From assembly GCA_903910705.1 (NCBI GenBank), contig CAIWAN010000052.1, positions 69,844 through 124,639 on the forward strand: a stretch of DNA of 54,796 bases, given 5' to 3'. Position numbers and translations under genes: made by a program. Origin of the DNA: an uncultured Candidatus Marinamargulisbacteria bacterium (GTDB lineage: Bacteria > Margulisbacteria > Riflemargulisbacteria > GWF2-35-9). Below are positions 1 through 33,687 of this stretch, in pieces. Positions within the stretch are counted from its first letter, which is position 1; each line of letters opens with the position of its first letter. The notes below the pieces were generated by a model. It did no database searches. It worked only from the letters and a program-made list of their open reading frames with translations, and was not told the DNA's origin.

Positions 1-3000
1 ATTAAAAACACCGACAGGAGGCGTTGTATCAAGAACGAAATTGATCGACACCAAGGAGAGGGGCGAAATATTGCCAGCCCCATCAACCAGTTTTACGTTG
101 AGTGTGCCAGCTCCCTCATAGAGGTTCGCCCCAAAATATTCTCTAAGGTCAGCGGTGATTGAAATACTCACCTCTGATAAGTTTGACGTCGACAAAATCG
201 TCGGCAAAGGCAAGAAAGAACTGAAAACATTGCCGGTTGCAACATGACCAAGCAGTCCATTCTTTGTCACAACAAAAACCTCAATAGGCAGATTGAGATA
301 AGGCGGATACCCTGAACTTAATTGAGTTAGATCATACGCATCGGTATTCAACTTCACAAAGAAATTGATCGTTGTTTGATCGAAGTAACCTGACTTTTTG
401 GACACACCGAATGGGGTCTGTCCATCACCTTGATTGTCAAAATCATCAATAGCCGCCGACATCGTCGCAATCTGATCCTGTAACACATTCCCTGTATCAA
501 TAAAAATAATCATCGATCGTTGCGCTATATTTTGAGCATAATCAACCGCATTCAGCGTCAGACTAATCGGGCCGGCCCCCATAACATTGACCCAATAAGA
601 CCAATTCACAGATACTTTTGTAGAGTCGGTCAAAACAAATTGGGGCAGCAGATGAGAACTATCGGTTGGGACAACGTTTCTTGAACTAAAAATAAAGCCG
701 GTGTTCCCCTTGAGTAAATTCTGATAGGCCAACTCATAATACCAGATCCCAGTCTTACTATGACCGGTTAGCCAAGCATTAGTTGAACCCACTAAATTAT
801 CAGACGCGACCCAATTTAAAGCAATTTCTGGATTATTTGAATTGAAAAAATGGGGCAATAGAGATGGATAACCCGACGCATTCACTACAGATCCAACCAT
901 ATTAAATGATAAGATCGCAGGTTTTGTTGTATCAACGATCATGGCGATCGAGGATCGTGTAACCAGCCCCGCGCGGTTTGAGTAATAAAGATCTAACCGG
1001 TAGAGCCCTGCAGGATCTGGAGTATTTAGTCCTAAACTTATTGTTGGATCACTTTCTGAATACGCAAAGCAATTATTGCTGAGCAACTGATAGGTAAAGG
1101 CTGTCCCTGTCGAGAATGGCGTGAAATAGAACTTTTGCCGCAAATACTCATTGCCCGTCGGCATTCCACTTTGCAGATCAACCAGTGCTCCCATGGCATA
1201 ATCTATATGAGTTGAAGATCCATTAAAATAAACCACTTGTTGGGCCTCGGTGTAATCATTAACCGATACGATAAAATAATTATTAGTGTTGACTATCGGG
1301 CTTTGTCCGATGGGGGTGCCATCAATAAGGGTAAGACCCTGATTAGGATTGAGTGTTGAAAAATTAAACATCCCTAAGCCGTCAGGAACAACCGGTGGCG
1401 TAACATCGATCGTCAACGTCACCCAGAAATCGCTAGCCGGCATAAAACCTCCCCCTTGTGGAGACATGGGAGAGGCAAAAACACTTATCCTAATCGAGGA
1501 TGAGGACAAGAGTGCACTAGACGCATTTAAGGTAGTATAACGATTTCTACTTACATTTAAGCCATATTTGCCAGACCCAGGAACCACATTTAAAAAGTTA
1601 AAAGAAAGGGTCGCAAAGGCGTAATACTCAGAAGTCTCCACATTGAAAGACGTTTTTAGATCATCATAAGTATTGTAAACATAAAAATCCTTTGATGAAT
1701 ACGATGGGGGATTAGTCGGCCCGCGGGTCCACACCAATCCATACGTTCCTCCAGGCATTTCACTGGTTGTTACAGCTAAATCAAAGTTAACGGTTCCCAC
1801 ATTATAAATTCTATTTTTAGTAGTAGCAGCCACATCAAGTTGGAAGGGCGTATACATTTCTGAGATATTAAGAGTAGCTCCATGATCTGAAAAAGCGAAA
1901 AGAAGCCAATTTGCCGTATTAATCGAGTTGTTTGGAAGAATCGTTAAGATCGAAGGATATTGCGGCAAATAATTTGCAATAAAAAGCGAATTAGGAAGTG
2001 CAACGCTACTGCGATTCCCTGCATAATCCAATACATCTATCTGAAAGTCATAGGTTGTCCCTAAGTTTAAATCGCTGGTTGTTCCCGTTCCCATCATTCC
2101 ATTCTTAGTGATGATGGCATCGGGGCTAATGAAAAAACAATATTTAAACGTCGCGGGGGATGGATTCCGAGCGTTTATTTGATAACTGGTCGTCGTTGCA
2201 TCAAATATCCCATAGGTGTTGCTGACAATCGTGTTGAATCGATTCGATGGGATAACAACGCTCATCGAAGGGATATAGCCTGATTGGCCATTTCGAGACA
2301 CACTTATCTCTACAACCGAAACCCTCTCAATCCCAGCATTGATCCGTCCCTCATTCGCAAGATTCTCCTCAACATTAAAATAGATCCGCAACCCCTGATA
2401 ACCATCAATATTAAATAATCTCTCCTTATTGTTAGGATCTGACGGATATATCGGTGCATTATCAAGAACAGAGAGATAGGGCATTTCAAAAAGCGCTCTT
2501 ACATCGTTACTCGTATTCGGATAACGATGGTCAATAATCGTTGCGGTAACAAAAACAGGCGATGTCTTATCATAAATGATCGCGAGGTTTCTTGTTCCTG
2601 AATAATTTCCTGCCTTATCTTGCCAAATAAAGTCAACGAGATTTAACCCTTCGACAAGATCCGATGTGATCGAATAAAAGGCAGGAGCCCAACCGGTCTT
2701 TGCACTCCCATTTTGATAGAGTCTGATCATAAAAGGATTATCAAAGAACCCCGTTCCCGTGACACCATTCTTGGTATCAGATAATTCAACATCAGCCGAC
2801 GTTATCCATCTACCAGAGGAAACAATCTCCAGATTATTTACGAACAGAACATCCTTTATTGATGAAGCTAAGGGCATTACTATCTTGGAAAAGAGATAGT
2901 CTGGCGATATCACCACCGACAAGGTGTTCGCAAACGTCAACCCCGGTGTAACGATCAGCCTATTCAGGCTCAAGGTAGTCGCGCCCAAATAGGAGTTGGC

Positions 3001-6000
3001 AATATTTGACGAGGGGAATTTATAGAGGCTCTCATGATTAAACGTTATCGTCGGCGCATCCGTGTCCAGATAATAAGGGATAGCGAATGTAACAACTGAA
3101 TCGGCAGCTCTATTGGGGATGTAGACCAACATTGCAGAAGATCCGTTACGCGTTAAGATGGTTCGGGGCTGATTTGGATCATACCAGTTTGCATTGGAAG
3201 CATCATAACTCTTCATACTAAAAGCACCCTCATAAACATAGTTGATCGTCGAATTACTTGTTGCCCACGAGGTGTCCCTCCCCCATTTCCCCGCATACGG
3301 GTTCACTGTCAGGGTTCGTTCTGCAAAAAAGAAGGGGGATTGATTGTAGTTTCGCAGACTATAGGGATCCGACGAAACCACAACATTAATAGATAAGTTA
3401 ATGTTCCCCGAATTCATATAAAATACTCCCTCGGATAGGGTGGGCTTCGTTTCATAGTCGCCCCAATCAGTATAGGCAGCCGGCTTTCGAATGGAATTAT
3501 AGGAGTAGTTTCCGTTTGAATAGATCACCTCGACTACTGGTGGTACTTCAAGAGAAACGGGTTTGGAAAGATGGACATGGTCAAACGTGATCCTAGATTC
3601 ATTATTGGCAAGATCCACAACCCCGAGACCTATTACACCCTTATCTTGAACCGTATCAAGGTTAATGCGTCCCAACTTTCTAACAGAATAATAGTTGCTA
3701 GAAAGGGTGGCATCGAAGTCTTGAGAACTCACTCGAATTAACTGAAAGTCATTGTTTCGAGCATTGGTGTCATCATAAAAATCATAACTGGCAACCTGAA
3801 GTTGATCGACTTGTGAAACGGAGATCGCATTATTGAATGAAACATATCGACTCATACCCCGAGGGTCGGATGACGGGATCATACTATTGCTTCGAGCACT
3901 CCAAGCATAAGAAAACCGACTATTCCCTAGATTTGTACCTTGATAAAACCCTAACTCATGACTCTTTTGATCCCATGCTCGAACATAGAACAATGAGTTG
4001 CTCGTAACCGTCAAGAAATCATATCCCCATTTATTAGGGTCGAATTCAAAGTAAGGCAAAAGCATGGTTCCAACATTGAAAGATAAGGGGTCTTTTGACG
4101 TGATCGTTTCATATGATCTTTGCACGTTATTTGGGAAAAGAGAGATCCGAGGTTCGCTGGCATACCCTGTTCCTTTAGCACCACTCTCTGGATAATCTAT
4201 CTCAAAATACGGGGTAACACCGAATGCACCCGCGATCGTCTTGATCCGAACAAGTCCAAGGAACTCTGGCCGACTATCAAGCCCCACCATACCCGAAAAG
4301 TTCGCATCGATCTGGGGGGCATCTTGATCGATATAAAAATAATAGTTTTTAGATGTTATATTATCAGCCCAATCTGACAGAGTGGCCTTTAACCGATAGA
4401 ATCCCGTTGTGTTCTGACTCACTCGAACCAACAACAGGTTTCTTGTCGAGACTTGAAGAGAGTCAACCAGATTATTCGAAACCAGAAAACTGTCGCTGAC
4501 CACCAGTTCATCACTGATAAAGGCAAAACGAGATAGCGTAGAAAGCTCCGTTGTGTGAATAGCATTTTGGGTTGATCCATAAAGCGGATCGATACTTTGG
4601 GTCAATGTCGTATCAAACGTAGCGATAATACCAGCTAAGGAGTAAGTTGGAACGATATTATTAACGGTTATCCAAGCATTGTCGGCTAATTTTCCCGGAC
4701 TAGCCCATTCATAAAGACTTAGTTTGAGATCTCGAATCCCCGACCCGACATTACCCGTCTGTGTAAGAGATGTATCCTTCATGAAAAGTGAGAATCCCGC
4801 CAAGTTGCCTTTAATCAATGCGTAGTCATTGTTGCCATACGTTCGCACGGCATGATAAGCACTATAATCATCCCGAAGCATGATATTGATCGAGGGCGCA
4901 CGTCGATCCAATACTAAGAGCTTACTAATCGCCTCATCAGATTTATTCTTAGCTCGATCAATCGCAGAAATATATAAGGCATAGACATTATCCGAAGCAA
5001 ACTGGACGGGTTGCCAGGAAAAATTTGACGAAGGGATCGCTCGATTATACGAAATGACCTTTTGACCAAGCCCAGCCGGATACACAGAAAGCGTAACGCT
5101 AAAGAGGTCGATACCACTACCCCCATTATCGTCCACCCTCGACCACGCCCACTTGGGTGTAGTAAAAGAGGATGTCGGATAGATCTCCGTGTTCTGGGAG
5201 ATGACATTAACCGTAATCAGCTTATTGGGTGTTGCCAAGTCAAGCCAGAATAAGACATTTGATCGACCTGGCTTTGACCACACCCCATTTTGATCGATCG
5301 CGTAGACTAGCGCTTGATAATCGCGACTAGAGAACGTTTCATCAAAACTAACGACCGCACTATAGGAGGGGTTGTCACCACTCGATCGAGTAAACTGACT
5401 ATAGTAATTCCCTGAATCCGTAACGACAGCGCCATCCGAGGTCAGCACATTCATCGTAACATTGAGATAGGGTTCTCCTAGCATACCCAGATGCAAATTA
5501 TTCTCCGTTGAGCTAAAGAACCGAAGGACATACGCATTAACAGGATTATTGTCTCGAACCCCATCCCATGTAAACAGATGGTTGCGAGAGGAGGTATAGC
5601 GACCATTTTCTATCTCCATTGTCCTATCATGCATGGCTTCAATGGGTCGAACATAAGAATCATATCTAAAGGAGTGCACCGTAGTCATCGGCGACCAATT
5701 GCCCGCATTATCTTGTACTCGGAGCTTTAAATAGTAGGTTGTCTCTGCTTGATCGGGGAAAACAACCAAAGGAACAATCGTCGTTTGATCCAAGGGAATA
5801 TCGAGCCCCTTATCTTTATTGGCCTCGGTCCCAAAATAATACTGAAGACGATAAATTCCACTTGGATTAGCCCCTGGATCACTCCAACTTATTTTAGGAA
5901 GCGAAATATCAAACTGAATTGCGTTAATACTTGAGATCGTCTCGCCATCGGTTACAACGATCGATGCTTCAAGGGGAATGGTAGCATAGGCTCTTCCACT

Positions 6001-9000
6001 TATCGAAGGCGGAAGGGTATCCACCCTAAAATTCCCCACACTTTCAAGTGACATCGCAGGAGCCATATTCCCCGCCTTATCTCTAGCAACAAGGGTAACC
6101 GTAAAGGCTTTACCCTCAACGCTTGCTGTTGTCACACCATATTTCGCTAATAGATTAAGGGAGGTCCGAATCGAAGCGCTTGGCGGATTATCTAATGTTC
6201 TCGTACCTAGATCACAATTCATATTTAATAAATACGAGTCGAGTCCACTGCCTCCGGCATCCTCCGGTCGAGTCCAATAGACCATCACGCTTTGAGGATT
6301 GTTCACCCAAAAAGAACTCATCGCGATTTGTCCGATCCCAGGCCACAATCGAGCTGGCTTTGAAGGGGGTGATTGATCAATCCCAACATAACCCGTTCGT
6401 CCGATCAAACTAACAAGGCCCGCCTTATCCACGGCACTCACTTCAAACCGATACTGTTTTCCGCTTATCCCCGTATAAGAATAGGACAATGGGCTCCCAA
6501 GAAGAATTGTTGGAGGTTGAGCAACAACCGTCCCTTTATTATCATATACGACAACATTATAACCCCGAAGCCCTGACCCCCCATCGTTGACACTTGTCCA
6601 AGAAAAAACGACAACATTCTTGGAGGTAATGGTGCCCACAGCAGGAGACGCATTCGGAACCGGCATCGGTGGCGGCGTAATATCATAACAAAGAGAATAC
6701 ATAGAATCATTAACTCCGCTATATCTTATTCCATCATGTGCTTGCAGTGAAATATTCGTAGTCCCTTCGGACACACTCGCGGGATTGACCATCATCCATC
6801 TCTGACCCTGCCACGTATTAATAGCCGGAAACCCACCGTAACTATTACTAGGTGATGTTTTGCCAAATAGGTACGCTGAGGCTGGCCCCTGTGAACTGTT
6901 GCCTTGCACCCAGAAGGCGATCTGTTTATGCCCGCTCCAAGGGGTCTTGATGTACTCGCTTGCATTATTAAATGCAACCGGAGGCCAAGGAACCTCCCAA
7001 TCAATATCACTATTCCATGTGTAATTCCCCGAAAAGAAAGACTTGGCTCCCTCATTACCCACCCAGTCTACGGGCGCAACAGCGATTGTAGGAACATTAT
7101 CAACATGATAATAATTTACATCAAAAGGGTGAATCGCAAGGAGTGTACCTAAATTATCATATATTCGCCATTCCTTAATACCCGTCCCCCAAACACCATC
7201 ATCAGCCGCTGTCCAGGTGAAAACAAAGTGATTTTCATTTGAGAGGACATCTGCCTTTGTTTTGATAAAACTGGGGTTGGCTCGGTTACCGCTAAATCCA
7301 GAATAATATAGCAAGGTATTAAAAAGACTTTGCCTAGCTGCTAATACGATAGTTTCGTCCGTTGTTGACATTATCGACACCAAATCCTGACAAAAAGAAT
7401 TAGGCATAGCCCCCCCCCGAATGGCAATAAAGGCATCCCCGATAACATGGGCTTGAAGAACATTGTGCAAGTTTATCGGTTGCGTATCAATGGAATACTC
7501 GCTTGCAAGATAGTCAATTAAATTTGATGTTACAGAAATATATTTGAGCGGCTTCATCGTTTGGTTAAAATCTCCAGCTGTCACATAACCTTTTTTAAAA
7601 CAGGCTTTATAGTCATCAAATTTTTCGGTCGACATCCCCGACAAAGCATTCGTCAAAGACCCATTTGAGTAAAGACTTAAGTAGTCTATCACCGGATATC
7701 CTGATGATAGGGGGCTATCCCCCTGTCGATAGAAGGGGGGGTACCCATTAAAGAATTCATAAAAAATGGAATACAGCACACCATCCCATGTGTCGCTCAC
7801 TACCGTATTTCTCGCAATATTAACCATCGAAGATAGCGGAGCCGCGCCATCAATAGCAATAAAGTTGGAGAACCCTGCAAGATCCTGACGATAGCCTGCT
7901 TTTCTAAAATCAAAGTCGGGATAATCTTTACCCGGCAAGCTCTCTTGCAATAGATTTCCAAACGCATCTCTGGCGGTCACTTTTGCATAGAACAGACCAA
8001 AGTTTGTGTCTGAATTGATATAGGGATTTAAATCAATAGGCCAACTTGTACCATCGATCCATCCAGAGGAAGCTAATGCGACTCCACCAGAGTAAGGCAT
8101 AAGCGAGACATTATAACTAACCGCAGAGCCACCACCCCGATCAGCCGCTGCCTGCCAAGAGATAACGATCTGCGCGGCCGCCCCAGGGGTAACAATGATC
8201 GGCGTCTTGGTAAGATCATTATTGATCGTGGGGATTTGCGGGGGGAAATAGTCGAGCTTTGTCGTGACCCAGTCGCTCCAATCGGATGTATTCCCCGCAT
8301 AATCTACGGTTCTGATCTTGAAATATTTAACATCTCCGAGGGCTGTGATACCGTACATGGTTCGACTATTCTCGGTACAAGCCCAACCCGCCTCATCCTT
8401 ATTGGTCTGCCCCATAATATTGTATCCTGTCCACTGCTCCCATGGAGGGCCTTCTCGAAGTGCGAGCTTTGTTAAAACATCATAGGGATAATCCACGGTA
8501 TTAAAGGTATCTAGCTGTGGCCTTGCATATCCATAATAAACTTGATACTCCTTGGTAGGGGTTGTAAAATCGTGGGGATTGTCATCACTACCCAGAACCC
8601 AGTTCCACTCGCGGCTCTTTTCATTGGTATAGTTTGTTTCATTTCCTCGAATAACCCCCGCATTATCTGCTGAGTATATGTCGACCAGTTGCTTTGGCTT
8701 TTGCATATCGACGATGACCTCATTGCTAGATACACTCCACCCACCCACATTCCCTGCTCGGTCAACCGGACGAACCCTGATGGAATATTTCCGACCCGAA
8801 ATAAGTCCCGACAAGCTCAAAATGATGCCCTTGCCATTTATATATTCGGGATTTGTCAAATTATTAAGAAATATTGTTACGTTAGATAAATCGGATACAT
8901 CATTGAATCGTGTCACTTCTGCCTCGTAGTGGTGAATCCCTGATCCTGCATAATAATTATTGTCATCCTTGGCATCCCTAACCGGCATAAACTGAACCGC

Positions 9001-27000: not shown

Positions 27001-30000
27001 ATTGGATAATGCATTCCAACTGACATTAAAATAGGGAGTCCATGTTGAGAATCCATTACTATTTTGAGAAATGATATAAGCCACAGCTTGGGTGTCTTTT
27101 GTTATCACAATATACTCGACTTTAGAAAGGTTTGATCCACCTAGATCTGAGTATATGATGTTGACTGAGGCCGCCCAAGTGGGCTGTGCATTATACCAAC
27201 GATCCTGAGCAACCGTAGGAACCGGATCGACCATATAATAACTGGGAGCTATGATATCTTTCCTTATTTTAAACCCACTATCTTTGGTCGTTACATTATC
27301 CGCTCGATCCTGCGCAAATAAGATCAGCTCATTGATACCATTGGTAAGGACATTCCAAGAGATGGACCATAGCTGAGTATAGCTACCGATCCCATTTTCA
27401 TTTTCACTAATGGACACATCTCCGGAAATGCCATTATTCAAATAGGTATAGCCAAATTTTAGAAGTTGAGAATAATTGATATCTTTAAACTCTATGTGAA
27501 GCCCTGTTGACCAGATCGGCTGTACGTTGAACCACGTATTTTGACTCACAAGTGGAATGGATGAATAGATGTCAATAAACGGTGCGATCATATCTATATT
27601 TACCGTCAAGATAACGGGGCTTGAGGTCACATTCCCTGCGGTATCTTCTATCGAAAACCGAAGGGTATTCGTCCCATTCGACATAAGGCCGAACGTTGGC
27701 GATATACCCGCAAGATAGGTTGGCTGATGATAATTTGATACAACAAGGTAGGAAGTATAATTATTGAGATACTTATTGTTAACCGTAAAGCTGATTGTGC
27801 TGATCAACGAATAGAGTGGATCAAACACCTTAACGTCTAAATACTGACTCCAATCGGGCGTAACGTGATACCAACGACTCTGCGTCAAGCTAGAAACATT
27901 AATTGACGTGGTGTATGTTGGCATAATGTCATCTTTCAGGATCTGAAAAAGAACGGGGCTAGTCACCACGTTGCCAGCCTTGTCGGAAACCCGGACACGG
28001 ACATCATTCGTACCCAGTGCGAAATTAGCCCACGGTATCGGCCAATTTGAAGTATAGCTGGTTCTTTGGTTTAGGTTGCCTGGGGACACCGCTTGATTCC
28101 AAGTCTCGACTCCATTAGACGAGATCCCATACTCAATATTACTTAATTTCGAACCGCCTTGATCAAAAAAATCGATATCAATTTGACTAAGCCAAGAGGG
28201 GGTAGTCGAATACCATTTTCCAAATCCATATTTCCCAAGATCATTATAGGAGGGGGCCATCGTATCTCTTTGAAAATGGAACAAAGCACTGGATTGGAAA
28301 CGATTATTCGCATTATCTGTTGCTATAATAATAATATCGTTAACACCCTCCGCCAAAACACCCCATGTAATAACGATCGAATTTATTGACAGACTGCCTG
28401 CCAGAAAAGCTAAACTATGTTCAGAAAACATCCCATTACTTGAAATTGCATATGCTGCTTGTTTTAATCCAGAATATCCTCGATCATAAATGACAATATT
28501 TAGGGTACTAAGTGAATGGGGATCTGAACGATACCAAGTATTAAACGTCGTCGAGGATGAATCCTCGCCATTATCACAAGTGGGCGGGAGGGAATCTTTT
28601 TTAACAGAATATAGTTTCTCGCTCGTTGTTGTATTCTCGGCATGATCGATCGCTTTCACAAAAACAGAATTTTCACCTTCCGAGAGATTCTGCCAATCAA
28701 TCGCTAGTGCAGAATAGGACCTTGTGCTAATCATTTCGGGCTGAGAGATCGAAAAAAGGTTGCTTACTCCATTAACAGAAATCCCATAGTAGACACTCTT
28801 TAATAAGGAATTCCCCACATCATAGAAGTTGATCGATACGAGCGACATCCAACTGGGTTTAACCGCAGTCCACTCGTCAGTATAGGCAGGGATGTCGGCA
28901 ATAAAACCCGGAGGGATCGTATCTTTTTTTAGGGTCAAAACCTTCTGCACGACAACATTCCCTGCATAATCATTCATGGAGATATAGATCTCGTTGATAT
29001 TGTCTGTTAGCGCCAACCAATTAAACGACCAATCCGTTGTATAGCGTTTTGTCTCCATTGGACAATTTGCAATAAATGACCAAGCAGGGAGCACCCCATT
29101 CATGGACAAGCCCCATTGAATAGTATTAAGTCCCGAATACTGCCCCAAATAACCTACGTCTTCAAAATCAATATCAATCACATCTTTTGACAACCACGTG
29201 GGCTTATCCTTAAACCAAACAATTGAAACATCAGAAATGTTCAACAATACAAGGGGGGCCACGGTATCCTTTTTTATACTTAGGAACTCGTTGGTAGATA
29301 GTGTACTATTTCCGGCCTTATCAACTACCCGAAAAGTTAAATCGGTTCGCCCTTCACTCAGTGAAGCAAAAGAAATATCACAAGAGACGTGGGTGTCCCC
29401 TAAACGCCCAAGATCAGAAGAAATGACCGATTCATCGTTTATAGGAGAACCTAATACATTGCGAGAGGTGCGCAGATAAAGGGATGCCAATCCCGATCCA
29501 CCAAGGTCTTGTATGTTTACAGCGGCGCCCGTCATCCATGCAGGAGATCGTGAAGCCCAAGGGTTGTCTGCATCCGCGTTAGGAAGAGAAATAAAGGAAG
29601 GCGTTATTGTATCTTTTTGAATTACAAACAACACCGGACTGTTGTAAACATTCCCCGCATTATCAGAGACCGACACCCAGACTTGATTGACCCCACTACT
29701 AAGTTTGTTCCAGCTTATCGCCCAATCGGTTAAAAAACTTGGGTGAGTCTCATCTAAATAATTAAAGATAAGCTCGCTAGTCACCACCCCATTACAAGAA
29801 ATGAAGTAATAAGCTTCTTTTAGATTTGAACTTCCCGTATCCTCAAAGTCTATATCAAGATTATCCATCCAATCTTGCTTAACGGTATACCAAGAGTCCG
29901 ATGAAACAACGGCAAGGTCGATCTTAGAGATTATCGAAGGCGTTAACGTGTCTTTATGCATCCACATGAGGGGAATAACGTTCTTACTATTCCCCGCATT

Positions 30001-33000
30001 ATCTTCGACCCGAAGATTGATCGTTGAAAACCCGTCAGGGAAATCCGTCCACGGGATCGACCAATGACTTACATAATTATTTGAATTAATGTTGATCGAG
30101 ATGGCTATATTCGTTGTAGTTTTCTGCCAAATAACCGAATACGACGCCGTGGCCAACATTGATCCACCCAGATCACTAAACTGAACGGGAATATTAGAAA
30201 TATAGGAAGGAGGCGTTCGATACCATTTATTCATAGAGGCAACAACGGTATCAACCCCTCCATTAATGGAGGGCTCTTTTTCATCTTTAAGAATGGTCCA
30301 CAATAATACATCGCTCGTGTTACTGGCTCGATCTATGGCGCGGAAACGGATCTCATTGGGGCCATTGATCAATAAATTCCAGCTAATCGTGAAATTATTT
30401 GTAAATCGAAGATCATTAATTAACGGGGCAATGGTGACGACAACAACGCCCTCATTATTTGAAATTATGTAGAAAACTGAACGAAGTCCCGCATTACCAC
30501 TATCAATGGCATCAACATCCACCTGATTGAACCAAGCGGGAGCTTTATTTTCCCATCGACCTTCTTGATAGAGCGTGTTTTTTGAAATGATGGGCGACAA
30601 CGTATCCTTTAACACATTAAAGGTCAGCCAAGCACCATAAAGGTTATGAGCATTATCCGACAAGGCAACATACACACTATTGGTTCCATTCAAGAGCGAT
30701 GCAAAGGGGATATTCCAGTAAAGATGGGCTGTATCGATTAAAGTCGACTTCGAGATGACAAACGACTGAGAGATCCCATTGTTTACAAATATCGCCCGAA
30801 ATTCAGATAAACCCGAATCCCCTTGATCAAAAACTGAAACAGACACCGGCGCCATCCAATCAGACGTCACTCGATTCCAAACATTGGTTGTGGCGGTTAC
30901 GGCGTTAGCAAATCCAGGGAGAAGGGTGTCAATTTTTATCTTAGCAACATTTGACTCCGTACTTCGGTTCCCCGCATTATCGATGGCGAAGACGCTTAAT
31001 TCATTAATGCCATTATTTAGGTCATTCCATTTGATCTCGATCGGTGAACCAATTTGTTCCGTCACACCGGACTGAATGGTTGGTCGTGATTCCCCCATAT
31101 GGTTGTTTGAGATGATCCAGCCCACAAACTTAAGACGAGCCCCCCCGAAGTCCTTAACATTAACGCTAATCTGACCACCAAACCAAGTCTGACTTGATCT
31201 ATACCACTCTAGGAACTTGGGATCGGTAGATGTCTCATAATTGTTTATGGAAGGAGCTCTTGAATCTTTAAGAATAGAAAACAAAACACTGGAAGACGTC
31301 TGATTCCCTGCTTGGTCGTTAAAGGAAACGCGGATATCATTCGTCCCATTTAGGAGGGCAGCCCAAGCGATTGCCCATTTCTGATTATATGAGAGGACAC
31401 TCTCATTCGTCTCATGACGAATAAGCTGGGGCTCGAGAGTCGTTCCGTTATTTGAGATAAGATAATACATATCCTTTAGCCCCGAGTACCCCGAATCACT
31501 GAATGGGACATTGATACTCACCATCCAGTCTTGTAATTCGCTATACCAACTCGAAAATTTTACATTATTGGACATTTCATAGCTTGAAAAACTAGGCGGC
31601 GTGATATCTTTTCGAAATGAAAAAGCTGGGGTCGCTTCGTTAGCTGTATTACCGATCAAATCATAACGTGGCAGAAATATATAATTTATTCCTTCATCGA
31701 GATCTGCCCAATTTAAGAACCAGTTATCGGTATATTCACGTCTTTGAACATTTCGACTGATCCAGTTTGTTGTTGATCGAATATTTCCCGAAATGCGATA
31801 ACTTAAATCTTTAATTCCTACCCCATCATTATCGATAAAATCGACATCAACGGATGAAATCCAAGCAGGCGGCGTGTTATGCCAAGAGGAATCTGGCGGA
31901 TGGTTATCTATATATACCGGCGCTGTATCATCCCAAAGAAAAGAAAAGACATTGGAAGAGGTAAAATTGTTAGCATTATCTCTAACCGTGACTTCAATAT
32001 CATTGGTACCTACATAAAGGTTTGCAGTGGGAATAGGCCAATTTTGGGGAAAGACGCTCATGTTTAACCCTGAGAATATTGGATGAACATCGTTATGCCC
32101 TCCGTTATGAATAATATAGAACGCATCATTAAGTTTTGATCCGCCCGTATCGCCAAAGTCAACATCGATCGAGCTAATATAATCGGGAATGATGCGATGC
32201 CATTCAGAACGATATTTCGAGTCGGTTGAATTAATATGACTGTCGATCGTAGGAGGGAGGATGTCCTTACTGATCCAAAATACTTTCACCAACGTATTCC
32301 AACTTGCTCGGTCATTCAGGGATAAGAAGACTTCGTTCAACCCATTGGTCAGCATCGAGAAAGAAACCGTCCATGGCAAGGAATACTCGGGGAGCGTTGC
32401 GTTCTTTGTCAAAACCACTTGATATTGGATGGCATTGTTATAGGAAACCAAATAGACAACATCACGAAGGCCTGATTGGAGGTCATTCATAGAAATGGGA
32501 ATACTCAACATCCAATCTTCGGTGGCATTCTTCCACCCAGATGAATAGTTTGAAGGCAATAATTTATTTGAAACAGTTGGAGTCTTCGTGTCCTTAAAAA
32601 CCGACCCTATATATAATAAGGTATAATTATTGGCTTGGTCATTGACGGAAATACGCAAATCATTGCGTCCCTCCTGCCACGCATTCCATAATATTCCCCA
32701 AGGCTGCGTATAATTCGCACTGTTCATATTCATGGTTATCCAATGAGGAAATAATCCGTTGTTGGCTGAAATAACATAGGCAATACTTTTCAGGTTTGCA
32801 TTTCCGCTATCTTGAAAGTTGATGGTGAGACTGTCATAGAACCCCACGTCTTTTGTTTGCCATTCATGGAAATACGGCGAGGTAAAATCTTCAAGGATCT
32901 GAAGCGTTGGGGATTTGGTGTCCTTTTGAATGATCACGACCGAAGATTGGGTAATATTCGACGCATTATCGCTAACGATCAAATTCACCGTATTGAAGCC

Positions 33001-33687
33001 TTCTAATAAAACCGAAAAACTCACGCAAAGGTGAGTGGCAACAAATAAGTTGTCCTTAATATTCGGCAAATAGAGCAATGACTGACCTGGATAGAAGTAA
33101 GCAGCCTGATTAAGGCTCGACCCTCCCAAATCGGAAATGTTAACGGTGATAAAACTCATCCAGTCGGCAGTGGTACTAAACCATTTACTCAGTTCGTCCT
33201 GCAAGATATCGACACTAAAGGTTGGCGCGATATATTCGCTAAAGACAAACCAACCATTTTCTGTACTCCAAGGCCCCCACTGAAAATTAGACTCGCGCAA
33301 CCTTATCTGCCAAGAATATGTCACATTCCATGTTAAGGACTGTCCTTGATAATCTATTGTTGGGGTTCGAGATCCTGGTTGTGTAGCGTCCATGTTCAAA
33401 AAATCTGGGACACCACTGTCCCAGACAATTCTTGATGAATTAAAATTTGCCCCTTCTGAAACTTGGATCTGATACCCTCTTGCAGGTGTCGCATCAGTAT
33501 TATTATATTTTGCTGAGAAGGCTATCGAATTTGTAAGCGTTGAGGGGTTCGTTTGCTGATTAACCTGCAGTTCATTGGGTGTCGTGGGTGGCGAAAAAGA
33601 ATAAACCGAAGACGCCACCCCTAGAAGCAAAGGTAGCGCCCATAAAAACACTCTGGATAGTTGCCCAGCCCGTCCCACTTTAATCAA
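1..33687 (-). CDS. Giant secreted Ig-like/FN3 repeat protein, C-terminus beyond window
   Basis: One minus-strand reading frame stays open from 33687 to the window edge, giving 11,229 codons with no stop seen (about 1.2 MDa). I followed the frame at the start, at 27-33 kb, near 20.2 kb, near 10.1 kb, at 7.3-7.9 kb, at 1-5 kb and at the edge, and it carries the same kind of domain sequence throughout. Residues 1-12 are basic, 13-25 are hydrophobic (VFLWALPLLLGVA), and a cleavage site near residue 26 is likely, so the protein should be exported by Sec. Residues about 35-150 look like a fibronectin type III-like module. About 64 Ig-like repeats follow, then longer FN3/Ig-like modules. The visible end reads VLDTTPPVGVFN, a linker typical of such arrays. 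No catalytic domain, anchor or secretion-system partner is visible. A surface adhesin, stalk or prey-contact protein is plausible; the true function is unknown. Confidence 0.9.
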   Translation of the reverse strand, partial: MIKVGRAGQLSRVFLWALPLLLGVASSVYSFSPPTTPNELQVNQQTNPSTLTNSIAFSAKYNNTDATPARGYQIQVSEGANFNSSRIVWDSGVPDFLNMDATQPGSRTPTIDYQGQSLTWNVTYSWQIRLRESNFQWGPWSTENGWFVFSEYIAPTFSVDILQDELSKWFSTTADWMSFITVNISDLGGSSLNQAAYFYPGQSLLYLPNIKDNLFVATHLCVSFSVLLEGFNTVNLIVSDNASNITQSSVVIIQKDTKSPTLQILEDFTSPYFHEWQTKDVGFYDSLTINFQDSGNANLKSIAYVISANNGLFPHWITMNMNSANYTQPWGILWNAWQEGRNDLRISVNDQANNYTLLYIGSVFKDTKTPTVSNKLLPSNYSSGWKNATEDWMLSIPISMNDLQSGLRDVVYLVSYNNAIQYQVVLTKNATLPEYSLPWTVSFSMLTNGLNEVFLSLNDRASWNTLVKVFWISKDILPPTIDSHINSTDSKYRSEWHRIIPDYISSIDVDFGDTGGSKLNDAFYIIHNGGHNDVHPIFSGLNMSVFPQNWPIPTANLYVGTNDIEVTVRDNANNFTSSNVFSFLWDDTAPVYIDNHPPDSSWHNTPPAWISSVDVDFIDNDGVGIKDLSYRISGNIRSTTNWISRNVQRREYTDNWFLNWADLDEGINYIFLPRYDLIGNTANEATPAFSFRKDITPPSFSSYEMSNNVKFSSWYSELQDWMVSINVPFSDSGYSGLKDMYYLISNNGTTLEPQLIRHETNESVLSYNQKWAIAWAALLNGTNDIRVSFNDQAGNQTSSSVLFSILKDSRAPSINNYETSTDPKFLEWYRSSQTWFGGQISVNVKDFGGARLKFVGWIISNNHMGESRPTIQSGVTEQIGSPIEIKWNDLNNGINELSVFAIDNAGNRSTESNVAKIKIDTLLPGFANAVTATTNVWNRVTSDWMAPVSVSVFDQGDSGLSEFRAIFVNNGISQSFVISKSTLIDTAHLYWNIPFASLLNGTNSVYVALSDNAHNLYGAWLTFNVLKDTLSPIISKNTLYQEGRWENKAPAWFNQVDVDAIDSGNAGLRSVFYIISNNEGVVVVTIAPLINDLRFTNNFTISWNLLINGPNEIRFRAIDRASNTSDVLLWTILKDEKEPSINGGVDTVVASMNKWYRTPPSYISNIPVQFSDLGGSMLATASYSVIWQKTTTNIAISININSNNYVSHWSIPWTDFPDGFSTINLRVEDNAGNSKNVIPLMWMHKDTLTPSIISKIDLAVVSSDSWYTVKQDWMDNLDIDFEDTGSSNLKEAYYFISCNGVVTSELIFNYLDETHPSFLTDWAISWNKLSSGVNQVWVSVSDNAGNVYNSPVLFVIQKDTITPSFISLPNADADNPWASRSPAWMTGAAVNIQDLGGSGLASLYLRTSRNVLGSPINDESVISSDLGRLGDTHVSCDISFASLSEGRTDLTFRVVDKAGNSTLSTNEFLSIKKDTVAPLVLLNISDVSIVWFKDKPTWLSKDVIDIDFEDVGYLGQYSGLNTIQWGLSMNGVLPAWSFIANCPMETKRYTTDWSFNWLALTDNINEIYISMNDYAGNVVVQKVLTLKKDTIPPGFIADIPAYTDEWTAVKPSWMSLVSINFYDVGNSLLKSVYYGISVNGVSNLFSISQPEMISTRSYSALAIDWQNLSEGENSVFVKAIDHAENTTTSEKLYSVKKDSLPPTCDNGEDSSSTTFNTWYRSDPHSLSTLNIVIYDRGYSGLKQAAYAISSNGMFSEHSLAFLAGSLSINSIVITWGVLAEGVNDIIIIATDNANNRFQSSALFHFQRDTMAPSYNDLGKYGFGKWYSTTPSWLSQIDIDFFDQGGSKLSNIEYGISSNGVETWNQAVSPGNLNQRTSYTSNWPIPWANFALGTNDVRVRVSDKAGNVVTSPVLFQILKDDIMPTYTTSINVSSLTQSRWYHVTPDWSQYLDVKVFDPLYSLISTISFTVNNKYLNNYTSYLVVSNYHQPTYLAGISPTFGLMSNGTNTLRFSIEDTAGNVTSSPVILTVNIDMIAPFIDIYSSIPLVSQNTWFNVQPIWSTGLHIEFKDINYSQLLKFGYTYLNNGISGDVSISENENGIGSYTQLWSISWNVLTNGINELILFAQDRADNVTTKDSGFKIRKDIIAPSYYMVDPVPTVAQDRWYNAQPTWAASVNIIYSDLGGSNLSKVEYIVITKDTQAVAYIISQNSNGFSTWTPYFNVSWNALSNTVNNVFVKVQDRAQNVVTSTLVFQIRKDEIPPSFNLKTPISTANQNTWYNLQPPWSVSVDIDFTDLGGSKIGRIFWGASTTNQSFSLFDVSSNIEGIDSWTDGINISWNVLDNGTNNIIFRVEDRAGSVVTSPILFQIRKDIKAPSIDNTGPVSLVSQNLWYKAAPDWSKYVNIDFSDLGGSRIAKIQYGVPSNNGGFDYQTISSSLQGLSNWTNDFAISWNVVGNGENDILFRVEDRAGNLTTKDAILKIKKDVLPPSYFVATPISNENQAAWNNALPYWASTLDIRFYDQALSGLKNAYYSLSPTTLDTIFYRETDGTVTVNSPWSLSWNLLVEGINRIGIGVVDYAGNIVTNSALLTINKDTVPPTVVIPDPTVFSGYIGEHSALLNAITVRAYDNGSLLNGFSYTIHNDNGTHNWVSVSENINSANYNRQWAISSSMLDKSFNDVWVKVSDNAKNETLIKCYTIKRDFTPPVVSINVDLSVFSGWLRIEPTLLSSLNIVFFDEESGINDVAYEIRPQNASDPIRRSITQNYNHSTYNYRWAVNWLDLQDEASNSIWVLITNNAGLFTSMNVFSVKKDTAAPTFSWTSGFQGLSWGHWINTSDLSIASITVSMVDIGSGINIVTKTIQAGTQNTSNRIYFTPVVNSLTQSVDLPWGKLFEGKNSLIISIDDVVGNTATFLSRDILWKDTIPPRIVTRNHSYALNGWVGATPDWMSDVPFDIVDSTSGWYSIDVHIEREGMASVMHHVTTNVLGLQILTMNATWGVPFSFFVDGQNTMDVILEDNARNRITYNAVLSPLIDRKFPLAIASKNWTVSVASQNVWYGLTNPPSYLNSINIFFEDQGRSGLAGLYYLVSYNGMALPYPIGQGDKNLTFSLPWQVQWDVLINGTNDVYVQAADYAGNTIVSGAIFRVYRDILPPEFILTRSVSDNVWYNVTPDYLVNVPVQFTDSGNAGLSRLGYVVSNSIGSPEEFFADAGRANNYLSPWVIPWVSLTNGLNEIYVTGSDYAKNSFMLPYLFKVYKDIVPPLISNRQASFGSKWYNKPPPELAQIDIGVSDLEGSRLNEFGYVISADQQQYFVISTNMATTNYQKQWSISWDALEQGTNNIWIKVSDNAGNKTVSSSVTRIYKDTLFPDIITVSETWPQEVSQDSWYRLKPLFLDSLDFDVSDNGKSGLSEIALWVTNDINPSRRFTVASPNGALKVVSNWNISWDYFYDGMSAMSVIASDRAENGVTTSRLLRVNKDTTAPLYQKDSFNFIETQWYNVEPISLRSVTISFSDTMSGLKSIAYEMVTQDATSSPTTTSIQVSADVGGQVAYNVPWSVSWNSLYSGVVDIWSDVGDRVGNSQHSKLFTIRKDIITPNLIINSSPDVSIWYKSKPYWFSEIDVDYYDKGGSTLKEIWIVVSNNGQPISTNKLFSYELNVSAYENNFDLNWSFLQNGTNDIQVSMNDGAGNWVLQRIFVVKKDEIPPSFNLQGSSLSTDWLITSPIWISAMPLVVTDDGYSGINLVQYGLSQNGGVYDWIAIDASVDQALYERTISFDWGRIHDGHNEIILSVNDKAKNSSSHLVGIINKDISFPDISSTVPATLNYNRVQQLVGDLTINAHIVDALTGTGIQDIWFGISQDVVMGPTFSVFTSAVPTYDVRLFFGLPWSAVPTGFSDLIVFAKDLAGNISHQKLAVLVRDTMHPQVVNSENSLKFETWYNQPNRPAWLSSINVWFFDQGVVTQNSKINNIAYLVSNNGVLVSEESITQHIGVVTYNSLWPIDWALLPEGVNGIAISLNDMAYNHPTNSVLFSIKKDVTSPNFENKATGDPSIFTKWYGLKSVHDFLNTINVQFFDKGFSGLASINYGVYSNSTMNWFIVSNSLRGSPTMDTPWVISWSVLTNGVNDIYVSFNDVALNVQRSSKLFSILKDVTPPSYNSKENPMSVTFSKWYSSDPQLAFDVDFMDQGGAKLKDIQYLISNNIIPTQGIVTTNYNRTATYNLNWKIYWTLLSEGINEVSVSMNDYASNQTTSNTLFTLRKDISPPSYNNHVTPNYVFKCYQMDSSTEIGPIDVDFSDTGGAGIASVSYGVSSNGQGLKWYPLSVNWVNNDRIIEDWFISYNVLLDATSDIYVRVSDRAGLTVTSSLLFYVIKDDTPPSISFMQNLKPSMDLWYGEKAPWMADVPIVIYDQGGSLLKDVQYCVSYNNDGVQGQSSWIWVTQEAMVITFNGVLNISWNILTNGINDIIISMNDHAANTFDRKILTIKKDTEFPTWDNQVISSNPDYKLWFKSNNSTLLTDLAVSLFDARYSTLYFANYIISCDGKANTPNIFSSSRIQPSYPSPLAVSFTDLFDGTNTISIRVLDKARNESRFGPLFTFNKDTIPPEVLFIVSADDQVIWYNASPNWFRQLTADIKDRGGSNLRMVDYQIISQPDKSYVITSDLTNSATASISISLNIDWTLLNNGTNDIAVRAFDNSQTPGVPNETNRGKLSFILKKDIISPNHVINPGGWDLSKWYNIEPAWLTTINIDFADTGFSNLKSVSYIISSSMGLTENVITINSSFDRSDYTDNWAIAWNVLTNGINEVLLSYNDNAGNRVVTGPVITIRKDIITPNFDNKMTVPTRWFRVFDPSWMSSVNIDFSDLGGSRIATIQYIVSWNGDSTFTRNIISRSVQYESATTNYIVDWPLKWDKLFSGTNDIFVEVTDWAGSVSRNKVFMIRKDAIDPSYNNRETFHDYDYWYKSSPDWLCSIDVSFSDMGSSNIDCIEYGISWNGQPMAWYNITKNLNALSFPSGWTISWGVLSSGTNDVYIRISDNATNSTNSPYLFRIKKDELLPSFNNLVSQNLTNSWYRITPDWIANVDIGFSDTGSSDLKDIFYGVSFNGQLQTWKQVSTNLRLTHFSDQWALDWNTLTNGFNDVMVSFNDFALNHVEAAVFSVKKDEKPPSISFVAATDQRYALWYKSPAEWMNDITISFTEDVSWIKDIYLGVSYNIMPIVWSQVSDDAHITHNLYSWTVSWAMLAEGTNDVFVRVDDAAHNSINVKTFTVYKDTKLPIVQNYEDLNHSKYSAWHNQAWFDSNVSTFNTVNIAFKDEGYSNLTTISILDMNGLVTSYSVQLFPTPSSLFRVSSYTLPWGVEWSRMFDGVNSYNAVVQDYAGNVLTSNLFTVKKDTISPSYEVVDTRINSGKWWNDAPEGLNDLDINFYDRGGSNLFRIDYIVSANQQSNSFTVNALINSDHYTNAINVLWDTSITNGINDISFTLTDNAGNHLLTPILLQVKKDVNAPYFNFGSNVIAFANDRTTVWYPAEPLANGYKYSTVDVKVHDTGYSLLKDFYIGVDSYVNSQSVGAIQWFTIMDSVNTNDYTTPVFVTWSILNNAENRIWFKASDNAGNGVITGPVFTIYKDQLPPTAHININFQDLERWYQVSPSWFSAVDVDFEDQGGAGISALQYGLKNGSNFTWTFISQNVEGKFTYSQDWTINWSSMNEGVNEVWVSYNDLANNATSNYLFTIKKDSVLPLLGSVSPNFPNGGLADWHSTLPPEWQYMLTIVSDDKNFSGLATVSYIVSANQGTWQKTVILTLNPTAQWRYTEPWTLSWNALTSGINEVIISVSDGAGNQLISRSVFMLKIDRVVPTVSISVNYFQNPVFHTWQNGGDDLYKSLDVDFSDNLYSGLMAAGLDVENAGLIKHHSPLLRKNGYSDPLEISVFNLRLVTTDWIVPWSELDEGANDIYLVVTDNAFNMAKVYVTQILKDTQSPTFASPSSSYDPLWYNTTPNWISENNIAFHDLGGSSIATIQIIVSMDGDYNEATLKLITGNYFSNDYVLPWAISWNVLTDGVNDIYAIVEDRAKNQSVLFVKQILKDTIPPSGNIPGQAMYANWYNIPVQAVLSINGVHLVDQGGSGIKHYFYGVVTGNKLEPDVYITVNSVPFLTGSVYTVSPDISLSFNALVNGTNNVIFKLMDYANNSITIDMGVTILKDVISPDILNNQTIGQFIPWVTSDRSWISQNVSINFLDSYSGISTISIQLLTNNITPISWNLSVVKGIQDYTEPWGITWSMLVNGTNTVSIRVLDRANNLTVTRAMVIRRDDTPPSYVVAPTLTSNASFMKWCNTAIGNPVFDTIKVTPNDVGGSLLSDFGYEISHDNGVSHDYYLISKNINKSTYPFTDWWAIPWNNLINGTNSIIVVVSDNAGWVTRSPVLFSIYKDELSPNFTVTTSVIPDISKWYSASPDWLVGVTLSVTDTGNSNLLQTYGSVYRYRAKDLSNFFSKSGGFKQSDAYPFTISWNNFSEGVNLISFNVVDRASNNYCAVWITVNKDTGVPSMDVLENRNDPKFQRWHPSAPGWMSAINISFVDVGSSNIRFAAYGISANQGTTVTWDILTDNASVHQISGFSISWNLLINGTNDIILRVTDNADLSRNAGVVFTIYKDNIMPSLSITTVEAFNQWHRVSPPWLSSITIDVTDSGNAMISTVDYYVYYHAQKVSDNWVLITRNLMTNVSTFYVSMNNVYLSENYSNGSADIHLRVIDRAGNVTESVIFTLLKDVDTPTIEWGLVSNKTTIRHWNNQLAPWMNALPVTFNETGSSNFSIVWQGVLTKDAPDLISKDYKWSIIYQDNGLRNIQTVAGFPLSWNMLDNGINVLQLKASDNAGNSINWLDLDSFYIYKDVVSPTVYIDPQQLANQDTWYKDSVPMTWLSLQGIVATANDQDGLSGVATLSYSVRNYKGQTIKTSTLFSSPLPADLHDYLFVTADTITLSFAELEDGQNTISVTVEDFAHNIGVSSFHFRKDTLSPSFNSTVPKGVYGGIGASPPAFLSRVTVNFVDTSSMIAWIDYGLSRNNVIVGGLTLNWFTVAPVLSSTSYSIPINIPWAQLYNGTTDIYVRMMDSAGNFTQSGVLFSITKNEGSLSFNNLVNADFSKYYNVTQDWINSVNIKFFDTSGLYSLGTLQYGVSSNSMGHITWNRITSYISGSDSFFSTPWVITFSQLAEGVNDIYISFNNTRVPPEQASSPVLFTILKDTLKPTLSFAPKYNDPMSQSVGIYRLEPEWLKSITVDLWDYTLGSKLATVNIGYRGHSQSFDQVKWTTLSTNMNRAREPTFSFDIKWADLAETINYVYLWVEDYAHNVATPMITVVSKDIKPPFASKDIYGRQNVVTFSINRNPPTFNWINPADDGIAGFQAVNFAWTTNNAYRGGYAYTTGTINNGQYIPDTIPTSIAYENDRWALFLAPRDNAGNTANFQELFQFVYDPYPPPRGGIVWNHGNPYHTLAGNNAPSILYVLNNSWSGPYEQGLSGVDFIAIMLTKNVSNANIVTAPSSSVVTLNSLASGLVWPNGKGGISSSDIPVDGDVYFWYSLVQDRAGNQATNMTSYRIDLSPPTFSFQVCKVSPSVVQAATWTSKDAMVFYITTSIPVDPAPNPFNFLNIRSAGFKMYQFSWGSQSNSPTENLMKDDPTLTITSNVAKFSVSGITPLPEGVKNRLSMRAIDYVGNISDWVTVNTIWYDGIPPYPPNDFLLSNGDLYANTENLLLTWKAAVDQGGSGVKRYRVSIQAYDGRGQSLLLSPPLLVISEDGRPIYSVLISNNYFAGYSAYNLSNGLINEYKYIASVVVEDNVGLISTLRKSNSVLLDKYPPEAPRNARVDAVVDSVATIKWGEPRDNVLTGKSAGSGVESYEIQSFYWDKSVSGDPNGSIPPYETAPTYGASVFVGETTQELQLPGDNPIITYVRGYDRVGIAGPWVLVRDLIVDNTPPDNPPIQVSRDFSLYSIFANDGMGNDIRVPAYTAGNVDTFHFTWMPGEDDLVGVQGYYVTWNKMAGFSAPTSSAGAIFTTNRVLNFRASSAGNYYLWIRSLDYYNNLNDTWQESYRYNFSGNSPSRPKAATWNVPLYLSQNTQISVSIDWSLLPKQNVPAGYTYSNQRATIRLYRAFSDIAVGAWLITPNLSNQTWIALTDNLKFGAQYFVKYYLEWDVSQLLQGVNVEKTGGFTESSYGSEYLFMDNECPPTVNDIRLNGGEEYASYNTLAVQFMPVRDAKDDNNYYAGSGIHHYEAEVTRFNDVSDLSNVTIFLNNLTNPEYINGKGIILSLSGLISGRKYSIRVRPVDRAGNVGGWSVSSNEVIVDMQKPKQLVDIYSADNAGVIRGNETNYTNEKSREWNWVLGSDDNPHDFTTPTKEYQVYYGYARPQLDTFNTVDYPYDVLTKLALREGPPWEQWTGYNIMGQTNKDEAGWACTENSRTMYGITALGDVKYFKIRTVDYAGNTSDWSDWVTTKLDYFPPQIPTINNDLTKTPIIVTPGAAAQIVISWQAAADRGGGSAVSYNVSLMPYSGGVALASSGWIDGTSWPIDLNPYINSDTNFGLFYAKVTARDAFGNLLQESLPGKDYPDFDFRKAGYRQDLAGFSNFIAIDGAAPLSSMVNIARNTVVSDTWDGVLYSIFYEFFNGYPPFYRQGDSPLSSGYPVIDYLSLYSNGSLTNALSGMSTEKFDDYKACFKKGYVTAGDFNQTMKPLKYISVTSNLIDYLASEYSIDTQPINLHNVLQAHVIGDAFIAIRGGAMPNSFCQDLVSIMSTTDETIVLAARQSLFNTLLYYSGFSGNRANPSFIKTKADVLSNENHFVFTWTAADDGVWGTGIKEWRIYDNLGTLLAIHPFDVNYYHVDNVPTIAVAPVDWVGNEGAKSFFSGNYTWNSDIDWEVPWPPVAFNNASEYIKTPWSGHKQIAFWVQGNSSQGPASAYLFGKTSPSNSYGGFPAINTWQGQRWMMVNPASVSEGTTNISLQAHDGIRYSGVNDSMYSLCYDITPPPMPVPNASPAVGTITSKNVVVFSWTSVNDGGSGLRGYNVVVYDNKGTVVAQPPTILLGSPLSYSYTGISGKQYRFEVSAVDKAGLVSLIGRTGYVGIDQSPPSKPARLWPGIGQIAMSSFWVNNPQSVMVYWTRPEDAGGSGLDSYLLNMNCDLGTRTLDNPPSASIRTSLNLLAKYGVTTASVEGKAFTVTLVARDKAGNMAPAMSLESVGNFRVDTLPPSISGRAYATIPLEASIVVTDGETISSINAIQFDISLPKISWSDPGANPSGIYRLQYYFGTEANKDKGLDIPLDQTTIVPLVVFPDQAETTYYLKLRVQDNAGNWSPMTTVHSFRYDSYVRPIEAMHDRTMEIENGRYTSSRNHLFTWDGVRDNNPVNAYVLRFFSSTENNLHLGMLGEPYLNVTMNVLTSDGAVVTDSGNYYSQFTRSSGDNPSYSAVVSFDETFSSRDYQALVYAIDQNGVWSKPGRSNVLFWLDLATPNKLITVNVISQNTEIYPTSSFTTPKWAWSRVDDNGGSGIDLFSVTLSVYPAGLGQKVISYNRAIPSSNFSWQPVQFASDNVYALYISAIDRAKNKSDEAISKLLVLDRRAPSINIMLRDDYSAYHAVRTYGNNDYALIKGNLAGFSLFMKDTSLTQTGNVGSGIRDLKLSLYEWASPGKLADNAWITVNNIVPTYSLAGIIATFDTTLTQSIDPLYGSTQNAIHTTELSTLSRFAFISDELVVSDSFLVSNNLVDSLQVSTRNLLLVRVSQNTTGFYRLKATLSDWADNITSKNYYFYIDQDAPQIDANFSGMVGLDSRPEFLGLVRIKTIAGAFGVTPYFEIDYPESGAKGTGYASEPRISLFPNNVQRSYETITSKDPLSFNVGTMLLPYFEFDPNKWGYDFLTVTSNSLFYVRAWDQKSHELGFYQGTNLGNSRFSYAWSARSNSMIPSSDPRGMSRYVSFNNAISVSQVDQLQVASYDFYDDTNARNNDFQLIRVSSQDFDATLSSNYYSVRKLGRINLDTVQDKGVIGLGVVDLANNESRITFDHVHLSKPVSLEVPPVVEVIYSNGNYSYNSIRKPAAYTDWGDYETKPTLSEGVFYMNSGNINLSINVVVSSDPYSLRNYNQSPFFFAERTLTVNPYAGKWGRDTSWATSNSTINYVYEGAFSMKSYDASNANWYDPNQPRTILTRNGSSAMLVYIPNRAADSVVTFAIPYYLDTDAPTITFNHESLYKFPSSNIANSYLGATTLSLNRLIVTPGLTFANTLSVVISPDYLFSKIVMPLASSIKDVLFVNNLEIVSSGRWITSADVELSDTKNGVTGTGFFDNPFMIRLYQNGSAKTGWAPAFYSITSDLVEGLNLVDFIWQDKAGNYSGTRNLAIIYDKTSPVFVTATIIDHRYPNTSNDVRALFEMPYLSVLDNAPIYPSDPNNKERLFNIDGYQGLRIYFNVEENLANEGRINAGIERVSVVEISVSRNGQSGYIPSMSVVIPSNRFNTIVSNTYGIFDATTTSYQINARNPSPATFKYCFFISPDAIITKNGMMGTGTTSDLNLGTTYDFQIDVLDYAGNRSSVALPNSLFIANYLPQYPSILTILPNNSINTANWLLFAFSDHGATLNISEMYTPFQLDVAATTKNRIYNVGTVNFDLAVTTSEMPGGTYGLVWTRGPTNPPSYSSKDFYVYNTYDDLKTSFNVETSEYYAFATLSFNFLNVVPGSGKYGLNVSRNRYTTLNASSALLSSSSIRISVFASPMSPQGGGFMPASDFWVTLTIDVTPPVVPDGLGMFNFSTLNPNQGLTLIDGTPIGQSPIVNTNNYFIVSVNDYTEAQQVVYFNGSSTHIDYAMGALVDLQSGMPTGNEYLRQKFYFTPFSTGTAFTYQLLSNNCFAYSESDPTISLGLNTPDPAGLYRLDLYYSNRAGLVTRSSIAMIVDTTKPAILSFNMVGSVVNASGYPSLLPHFFNSNNPEIALNWVASDNLVGSTNAWLTGHSKTGIWYYELAYQNLLKGNTGFIFSSRNVVPTDSSHLLPQFVLTDSTKVSVNWSYWVNVMGAGPISLTLNAVDYAQNIAQRSMIIFIDTGNVLQDQIATMSAAIDDFDNQGDGQTPFGVSKKSGYFDQTTINFFVKLNTDAYDLTQLSSGYPPYLNLPIEVFVVTKNGLLGHVATGNVFSSFLPLPTILSTSNLSEVSISITADLREYFGANLYEGAGTLNVKLVDGAGNISPLSLVSINFVLDTTPPVGVFN
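7300..7930 (-). other. Non-repetitive island in the giant protein
   Basis: Residues about 8590-8800 break the FN3/Ig rhythm. The stretch looks more helical (blocks such as YEFFNGYPPFYRQGD, LSGMSTEKFDDYKACFKKG and NLHNVLQAHVIGDAFIAI) and has two cysteines (in KACFKK and NSFCQD), which are scarce in the rest of the protein I read. It may be a folded functional domain displayed within the array. I recognise no family. Confidence 0.55.
7410..7418 (-). repeat. G9 homopolymer inside the giant reading frame
   Basis: Nine consecutive C on the plus strand read as CGG GGG GGG G in the gene, encoding R-G-G-A at residue about 8757. A slip by one base would shift the frame and truncate the last visible 2,470 residues and everything beyond. 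Confidence 0.8.
11640..33240 (-). repeat. About 64 tandem Ig-like repeats of about 112 aa
   Basis: The repeats are inside the giant protein, residues about 150-7350. Each unit starts near a KKDTxxP linker, then has WY near a xPxW motif, an INIxFxDxGxSxL strand, an IxYxIS(x)NN strand, an IxWNxLxxGxNDI strand and a VxDxAGN strand before the next linker. I located about 64 linkers (for example near 32920, 29949, 25908, 20243, 15108 and 11650), spaced roughly 320-370 bp apart. The copies are clearly related in protein but diverged in DNA, so the array is old or under diversifying pressure rather than a recent amplification. Fold assignment (Ig-like beta-sandwich) is inferred from the motif pattern. 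Confidence 0.85.

Follow-up and report, generated by a model that had tools for sequence, protein, structure and literature searches.

A 16,437-codon gene of uncultured Margulisbacteria, conserved over two families with an unvarying array of 64 Ig-like units, as a candidate for a fixed-length surface protein

A single gene of an uncultured Margulisbacterium from the class of GWF2_35_9, 16,437 codons long, has orthologues that are collinear from end to end in two families of its order, and neither the number of Ig-like units in its main array, 64, nor the entire domain order varies between these families, an invariance that appears to be new. By the window we mean the whole stretch of DNA that was analysed, 54,796 nucleotides (contig C52:69844-124639, in a genome of 2.2 Mb that is 98% complete). 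The features within it that concern us here, in window coordinates, are the following.

1-33687, minus strand: giant gene, aa 1-11,229 of 16,437, running on beyond the window to a stop at C52:54217
1-1197, minus strand: beginning of the ~410-aa super-repeats (~aa 10,831 onward), most copies of which lie outside the window
1198-11661, minus strand: varied FN3/Ig-like modules (~aa 7343-10,830), the boundary on the C-terminal side being approximate
11662-33234, minus strand: 64 Ig-like (Big_13-type) units of ~112 aa (aa 152-7342), with an Asp triad like that of the SiiE type-I Ca2+ site in 59 of 64
33235-33594, minus strand: N-terminal Ig-like module, Ig_Rha78A_N-like by Pfam match (aa 32-151)
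33595-33687, minus strand: TTG start and predicted signal peptide (about aa 1-31), from inspection and hydropathy; orthologues with the start present also have TTG
33688-33800, minus strand: 5' region of the giant gene, with a ~30-base stretch, ACTTAATTATTGGGGGGGCTTCCTATATAAT, that includes TATAAT and is identical in the congener
33854-34012, minus strand: rubredoxin, a separate neighbouring gene upstream of the giant gene
34034-35528, minus strand: ferritin, desulfoferrodoxin and rubrerythrin genes, upstream of the giant gene

The initial annotation had claimed that a giant secreted protein with a signal peptide is encoded by a real gene, in one stop-free frame of more than 11,229 residues that leaves the window. 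The frame indeed opens with a TTG at position 33687 of the minus strand and does so leave it, and the figure is a correct lower bound. Extension of the contig and translation of the full frame, both proposed in that annotation, yielded a stop at C52:54217-54219, 15.6 kb past the window edge, a C-terminal FlgD-like domain and zero internal stops across the 16,437 codons (1.82 MDa, pI 4.65). The TTG is preceded at a distance of ~6 nt by AGGGG and recurs in the four other copies checked (G001, G002, G003, and G005), and the N-terminus fits a signal peptide. Together with orthologues of the same length elsewhere, the stop and the C-terminal domain support the claim of a real giant gene. No convincing internal transmembrane (TM) helix was found in the protein, nor was any domain for catalysis or ligand binding recognised.

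The giant gene is present in all seven genomes of the order that were examined, and the array was not found in G007, the sole other member of the class among the genomes examined. In G005, which belongs to another family, the orthologue is intact as one frame of 16,984 aa, and in G003 it comes to 16,419 aa across two contigs with an exact end overlap of 127 bases. The copy in G004 is truncated by the start of its contig, the only interruption of the frame being a run of N, and G001, G002, and G006 hold fragments of the gene. Profile matches of the C-terminus include the Margulisbacteria MAGs GWF2_35_9, Ki3-D4_bin-163 (Ca. Marinamargulisbacteria), and SulCav_GS10 (Ca. Termititenax sp.). Compared with the congener G001, the protein is 68-74% identical and dN/dS is 0.11-0.13 in all parts covered, nucleotide change being concentrated at third positions; judged from these comparisons, purifying selection holds across the giant gene. 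In pairwise dynamic-programming alignments of the full proteins, identity to G003 is 33-46% per 1,000 residues with zero gaps of 30 aa or more, and identity to G005 is 30-39%, the only gap of that size being a 65-aa insertion that lies outside the array. Because the neighbours diverge less (FliM 68% and 47%, HDOD 70% and 53% identity), the giant sequence has drifted more than theirs, and its length has barely changed.

The indels between our genome (G000) and G001 are short and in frame, with two exceptions in G001:C116, a contig of the congener, where a TAG and a frameshift occur; these two sit in an otherwise constrained frame, and at this site an assembly error and a recent lesion are indistinguishable. 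Three observations exclude a chance frame: its length, the dN/dS with the third-position bias, and the occurrence of the same gene in independent assemblies. Tandem Repeats Finder found no repeat at the DNA level, so the units have diverged enough to make collapse in a short-read assembly unlikely. An artefact of another kind, that is, a chimeric assembly, a pseudogene, or several genes joined by frame errors, could draw on the two lesions in G001:C116 and on the draft status of the genomes, but its probability is negligible and it is refuted for practical purposes, given collinear, one-to-one orthologues of 16,419-16,984 aa in independent assemblies, the selection described above, and units too diverged for collapse. 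The giant gene is a single intact gene, neither several genes nor a chimera.

A second family of proteins, of ~2,500-2,600 aa and akin to the giant protein in its C-terminal part, occurs in several members of the order (L045, G000:C104, G001:C177, G003:C2, and G004:C24). A contig of an Elusimicrobia MAG (L046:7898-8587) codes for a relative of the fn3-plus-tail region with 32% identity.

The domain order agrees in outline with the initial annotation, which had listed an FN3-like first module, a long Ig-like array, and varied modules. The first module exists but is of a different type, its Pfam match being Ig_Rha78A_N (aa 38-144, E 7e-5) and not fn3. The array comprises 64 units (aa 152-7342), with a Big_13 match at E 7e-34 in the first 5,000 aa of the protein. 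The varied modules are FN3/Ig-like domains, including an fn3 match at ~aa 9019-9090, then roughly six copies of the ~410-aa super-repeat, extending to ~aa 13,240, and then, mostly outside the window, a run of ~135-aa units, beta domains, fn3, and the FlgD-like tail.

An iterated HMM delineated exactly 64 units of ~110-112 aa in each of the three complete copies (G000, G003, and G005); within the giant protein, the units are ~25-35% alike. The orthology of the arrays rests on whole-array register, individual units not always being reciprocal best matches: naive best-hit mapping of units is misleading because consensus-like units draw matches, and double-centring of the scores resolves the register. 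In the double-centred unit score matrices for G000 and G003, lag 0 scores 73.6 compared with a maximum of 11.0 at other lags (SD 3.5), and lag 0 is the best in every 8-unit window in all three pairwise comparisons. When one unit was deleted or duplicated in silico as a control, the same alignment showed detectable gaps, clean and single for a loss in G003 and smeared in the other controls, and no unit-sized gap was found in the aligned array parts of the partial orthologues in G001, G002, G004, and G006. Although tandem arrays can gain and lose units, the number of units here is invariant, which is strong evidence for selection on exact length; the exact length of the protein thus seems to matter to the cell. 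E. coli YeeJ (13 Big repeats), by contrast, has two length variants in a single species (PMC5595812). An origin of the 64 units by successive doublings was considered and rejected: lag 32 is the top detrended lag yet reaches only 1.75 SD, and lags 8 and 16 are at ~0.5.

The structure model of three consecutive units (pLDDT 94.8) has as its top solved folds the extender tetra-repeat 6xi3, SiiE BIg50-52 (2yn5/2yn3), and MpAFP (5irb), and the best sequence match of the units in the PDB is SiiE 2yn3, a weak one (E 0.01). The unit consensus contains three conserved Asp residues, D4 (97%), D41 (95%), and D99 within DxAGN (98%), which we equate with the ligands of the SiiE type-I interdomain Ca2+ site, namely, 117D of the preceding domain, 43D, and 97D (PMC5466336, PMC6272769). 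The full triad is found in 59/64, 62/64, and 56/64 units in the three species, and no SiiE type-II site is obvious in the unit consensus. By analogy with SiiE, Ca2+ would be bound at the unit-unit interfaces and the array would form a rod; given that SiiE, with 53 BIg domains, is 175 nm long (PMC6272769), that is, ~3.3 nm per unit, the predicted lengths are ~0.2 µm for the array and up to ~0.5 µm for the whole protein. A viral origin was also considered and rejected, as the C-terminus has no relative in IMG/VR or phage records and the viral fold matches are generic FN3/Ig folds with ~8-16% identity.

The last 95 aa of the giant protein match FlgD_ig with 28.8 bits, above the cut-off of 27, and contain the motif YPNPF...IYDALGHFV, with the terminal motif GV(I/L)(H/R) in most orthologues. 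Only the Ig-like part of the FlgD hook-cap domain set is matched, so the set is incomplete (NF005176, 26 vs 230 bits). The tail is modelled poorly (pLDDT mostly <60), for which reason the fold search of the C-terminal model was not applied to it. In this genome, the FlgD_ig-like tail is C-terminal in 11 of 11 carriers, the giant protein and ten others, ending 0-13 residues before the terminus; the ten (L052-L061) are open frames of 465 to 3,021 aa, and in the three other carriers whose N-terminus is visible, a hydrophobic segment resembling a signal opens the sequence. Matches to the last ~100 residues of the giant protein are also present in many further genomes of the phylum. The tail domain has the look of a signal for sorting or anchoring and is a candidate for a phylum-wide C-terminal sorting signal; it may show by what means Margulisbacteria export their surface proteins or anchor them.

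In its many exported-type carriers, the tail resembles the T9SS type A sorting/FlgD Ig-like domain; unlike in T9SS cargo, it falls below the T9SS cut-offs (TIGR04183, 21.7 bits vs 23; PF18962, 16.1 bits vs 27). The T9SS marker SprA_N was matched in 0 of 74 genomes of the phylum in a search without a positive control, and Peptidase C25 (PorU-type) is absent in G000 and G002-G006, so that a canonical T9SS was rejected. C25 (gingipain/PorU-type) peptidase domains are present in G001 and G007 (L047, L048). No T1SS genes were detected among the neighbouring genes scanned, and the giant protein carries an N-terminal signal peptide instead. Omp85 is encoded in all 12 genomes searched, and the cells are thus probably diderm.

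The reading that we favour, and consider reasonably probable, is that the protein is exported by Sec and forms a fibre or adhesin at the cell surface, constant in length, stiffened by Ca2+, and possibly tied to motility. Under this scenario, the product of a single, functional gene would be exported as a 1.8 MDa fibre of defined length and would sit on the surface of a diderm Margulisbacterium that has flagella, with export driven by the Sec signal peptide and the 64 Ig-like units making up a rod in which Ca2+ would stiffen every unit-unit interface, much as in the SiiE and MpAFP extenders. Binding surfaces would be offered by the FN3/Ig modules that come later and by the super-repeats, and the FlgD/T9SS-tail-like domain, common to ten other proteins of the genome, would act as the sorting or anchoring signal. 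Such a protein would most likely serve as an adhesin or attachment stalk of great length, with the constant unit count fixing how far it extends, and it may be expressed jointly with the chemotaxis and flagellar genes downstream; surface location, adhesion, and co-transcription are what we infer here. A more far-reaching version, which we regard as doubtful, is a molecular ruler, in which the 64 Ig units and the fixed C-terminal half would set a surface distance linked to motility and chemotaxis, with selection for exact length holding each unit in place from the order's ancestor onward and with the FlgD-like tail exporting or anchoring proteins in this phylum without the known T9SS translocon.

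Downstream of the giant gene, co-directional and 13 bp off, is a gene for a DnaJ-domain protein followed by CheD, CheR, HDOD, and FliM. The CheD-CheR-HDOD-FliM cluster is found downstream of the giant gene, with small changes, in G002-G006, a hexapeptide-transferase gene adjoins the giant gene in G003-G006, and the spacing to the next gene is 12-64 bp across the order. Flagellin-family genes were detected in 8/8 genomes of the class vs 0/4 sampled outside it, such genome-wide statements resting on family searches. This context, the FlgD_ig match of the tail (accompanied by one to the FlgD equivalog, far under the cut-off), and a fixed length that suits a ruler are all consistent with a motility-linked structure in place of a general adhesin, that is, a FlgD-tailed filament, a gliding adhesin, or a flagellum-associated ruler used with the downstream operon. 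We nevertheless consider this explanation unlikely because the same tail ends ten proteins of unrelated size and so is general and not hook-specific, the DnaJ or hexapeptide-transferase gene separates the giant gene from CheD, and G007 has flagellins but lacks the array.

On the upstream side, rubrerythrin and/or ferritin genes are also present in G001, G002, G003, and G005, and a scan of the 5' region for the sigma-70 consensus returned no site. Farther along the window, on the plus strand (36664-37839), a PLP-dependent decarboxylase (Orn/DAP/Arg decarboxylase fold) has 99% protein identity to the congener at dS ~1.1 (dN/dS 0.009) and is far more constrained than its neighbours.

An envelope structural component, such as an S-layer-like coat or a periplasmic spacer, has in our estimate as small a chance of being correct as a motility-linked structure. 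The signal peptide, the Ig-like fold, purifying selection, and the fixed length would all fit it, and the fold matches include an S-layer protein of Deinococcus, as a generic Ig-fold match, but neither SLH nor peptidoglycan-binding segments were recognised, nor any convincing membrane-spanning one, and the nearest folds as well as the Asp triad are of the adhesin-extender type. Among the named relatives, one bears the label Ca. Termititenax, an epibiotic genus. A secreted factor for predation or host attachment, acting on prey or host cells by degradation or binding, is nonetheless very improbable: Pfam scans detected no hydrolase or lectin domain, no result indicates a host or prey, and the idea otherwise draws on analogy only, with the Omnitrophota giant ORFs for which it was proposed (PMC10066038). 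The allusion of the initial annotation to predatory or epibiotic lineages receives neither support nor contradiction from these results.

The favoured reading, a long surface fibre, invites comparison with known adhesins. The extender repeats of large adhesins, of the MpAFP RII type, are often near-identical, and these proteins are T1SS-secreted and have a LapA-type retention module. The units of the giant protein share the Ig-like extender fold with MpAFP RII (5irb) and the 6xi3 adhesin, but with their ~25-35% likeness they are anything but near-identical. SiiE of Salmonella enterica, a 595 kDa protein with 53 BIg domains and type I secretion, has an array reported to be genetically stable (PMC6272769), and it resembles the giant protein in its tandem BIg units, the same interdomain Asp triad, the DxAGN motif, and a near fold. 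The giant protein, however, is three times larger, has an N-terminal signal peptide and a FlgD-like tail where SiiE has a T1SS signal, and maintains its array over two families, whereas the stability statement for SiiE covers Salmonella.

Among giant proteins at large, the portions of a huge-protein survey on which we draw place Margulisbacteria among the phyla enriched in proteins of >5,000 aa, give those proteins no function, and do not describe the present family (PMC11573180). The Omnitrophota giant ORFs, for example, that of 39,678 aa in Velamenicoccus, are reported to be poorly conserved, with few annotated domains and, in some, many predicted TM helices (PMC10066038). The gene described here is like them in its extreme length and in belonging to an uncultured small-genome lineage, but its product is smaller, collinearly conserved, built in an ordered Ig architecture, and devoid of a convincing internal TM helix. 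Descriptions of giant bacterial ORFs have presented them as poorly conserved and unclear in function; with one that is conserved end to end over two families, the question of what a giant protein is for becomes testable.
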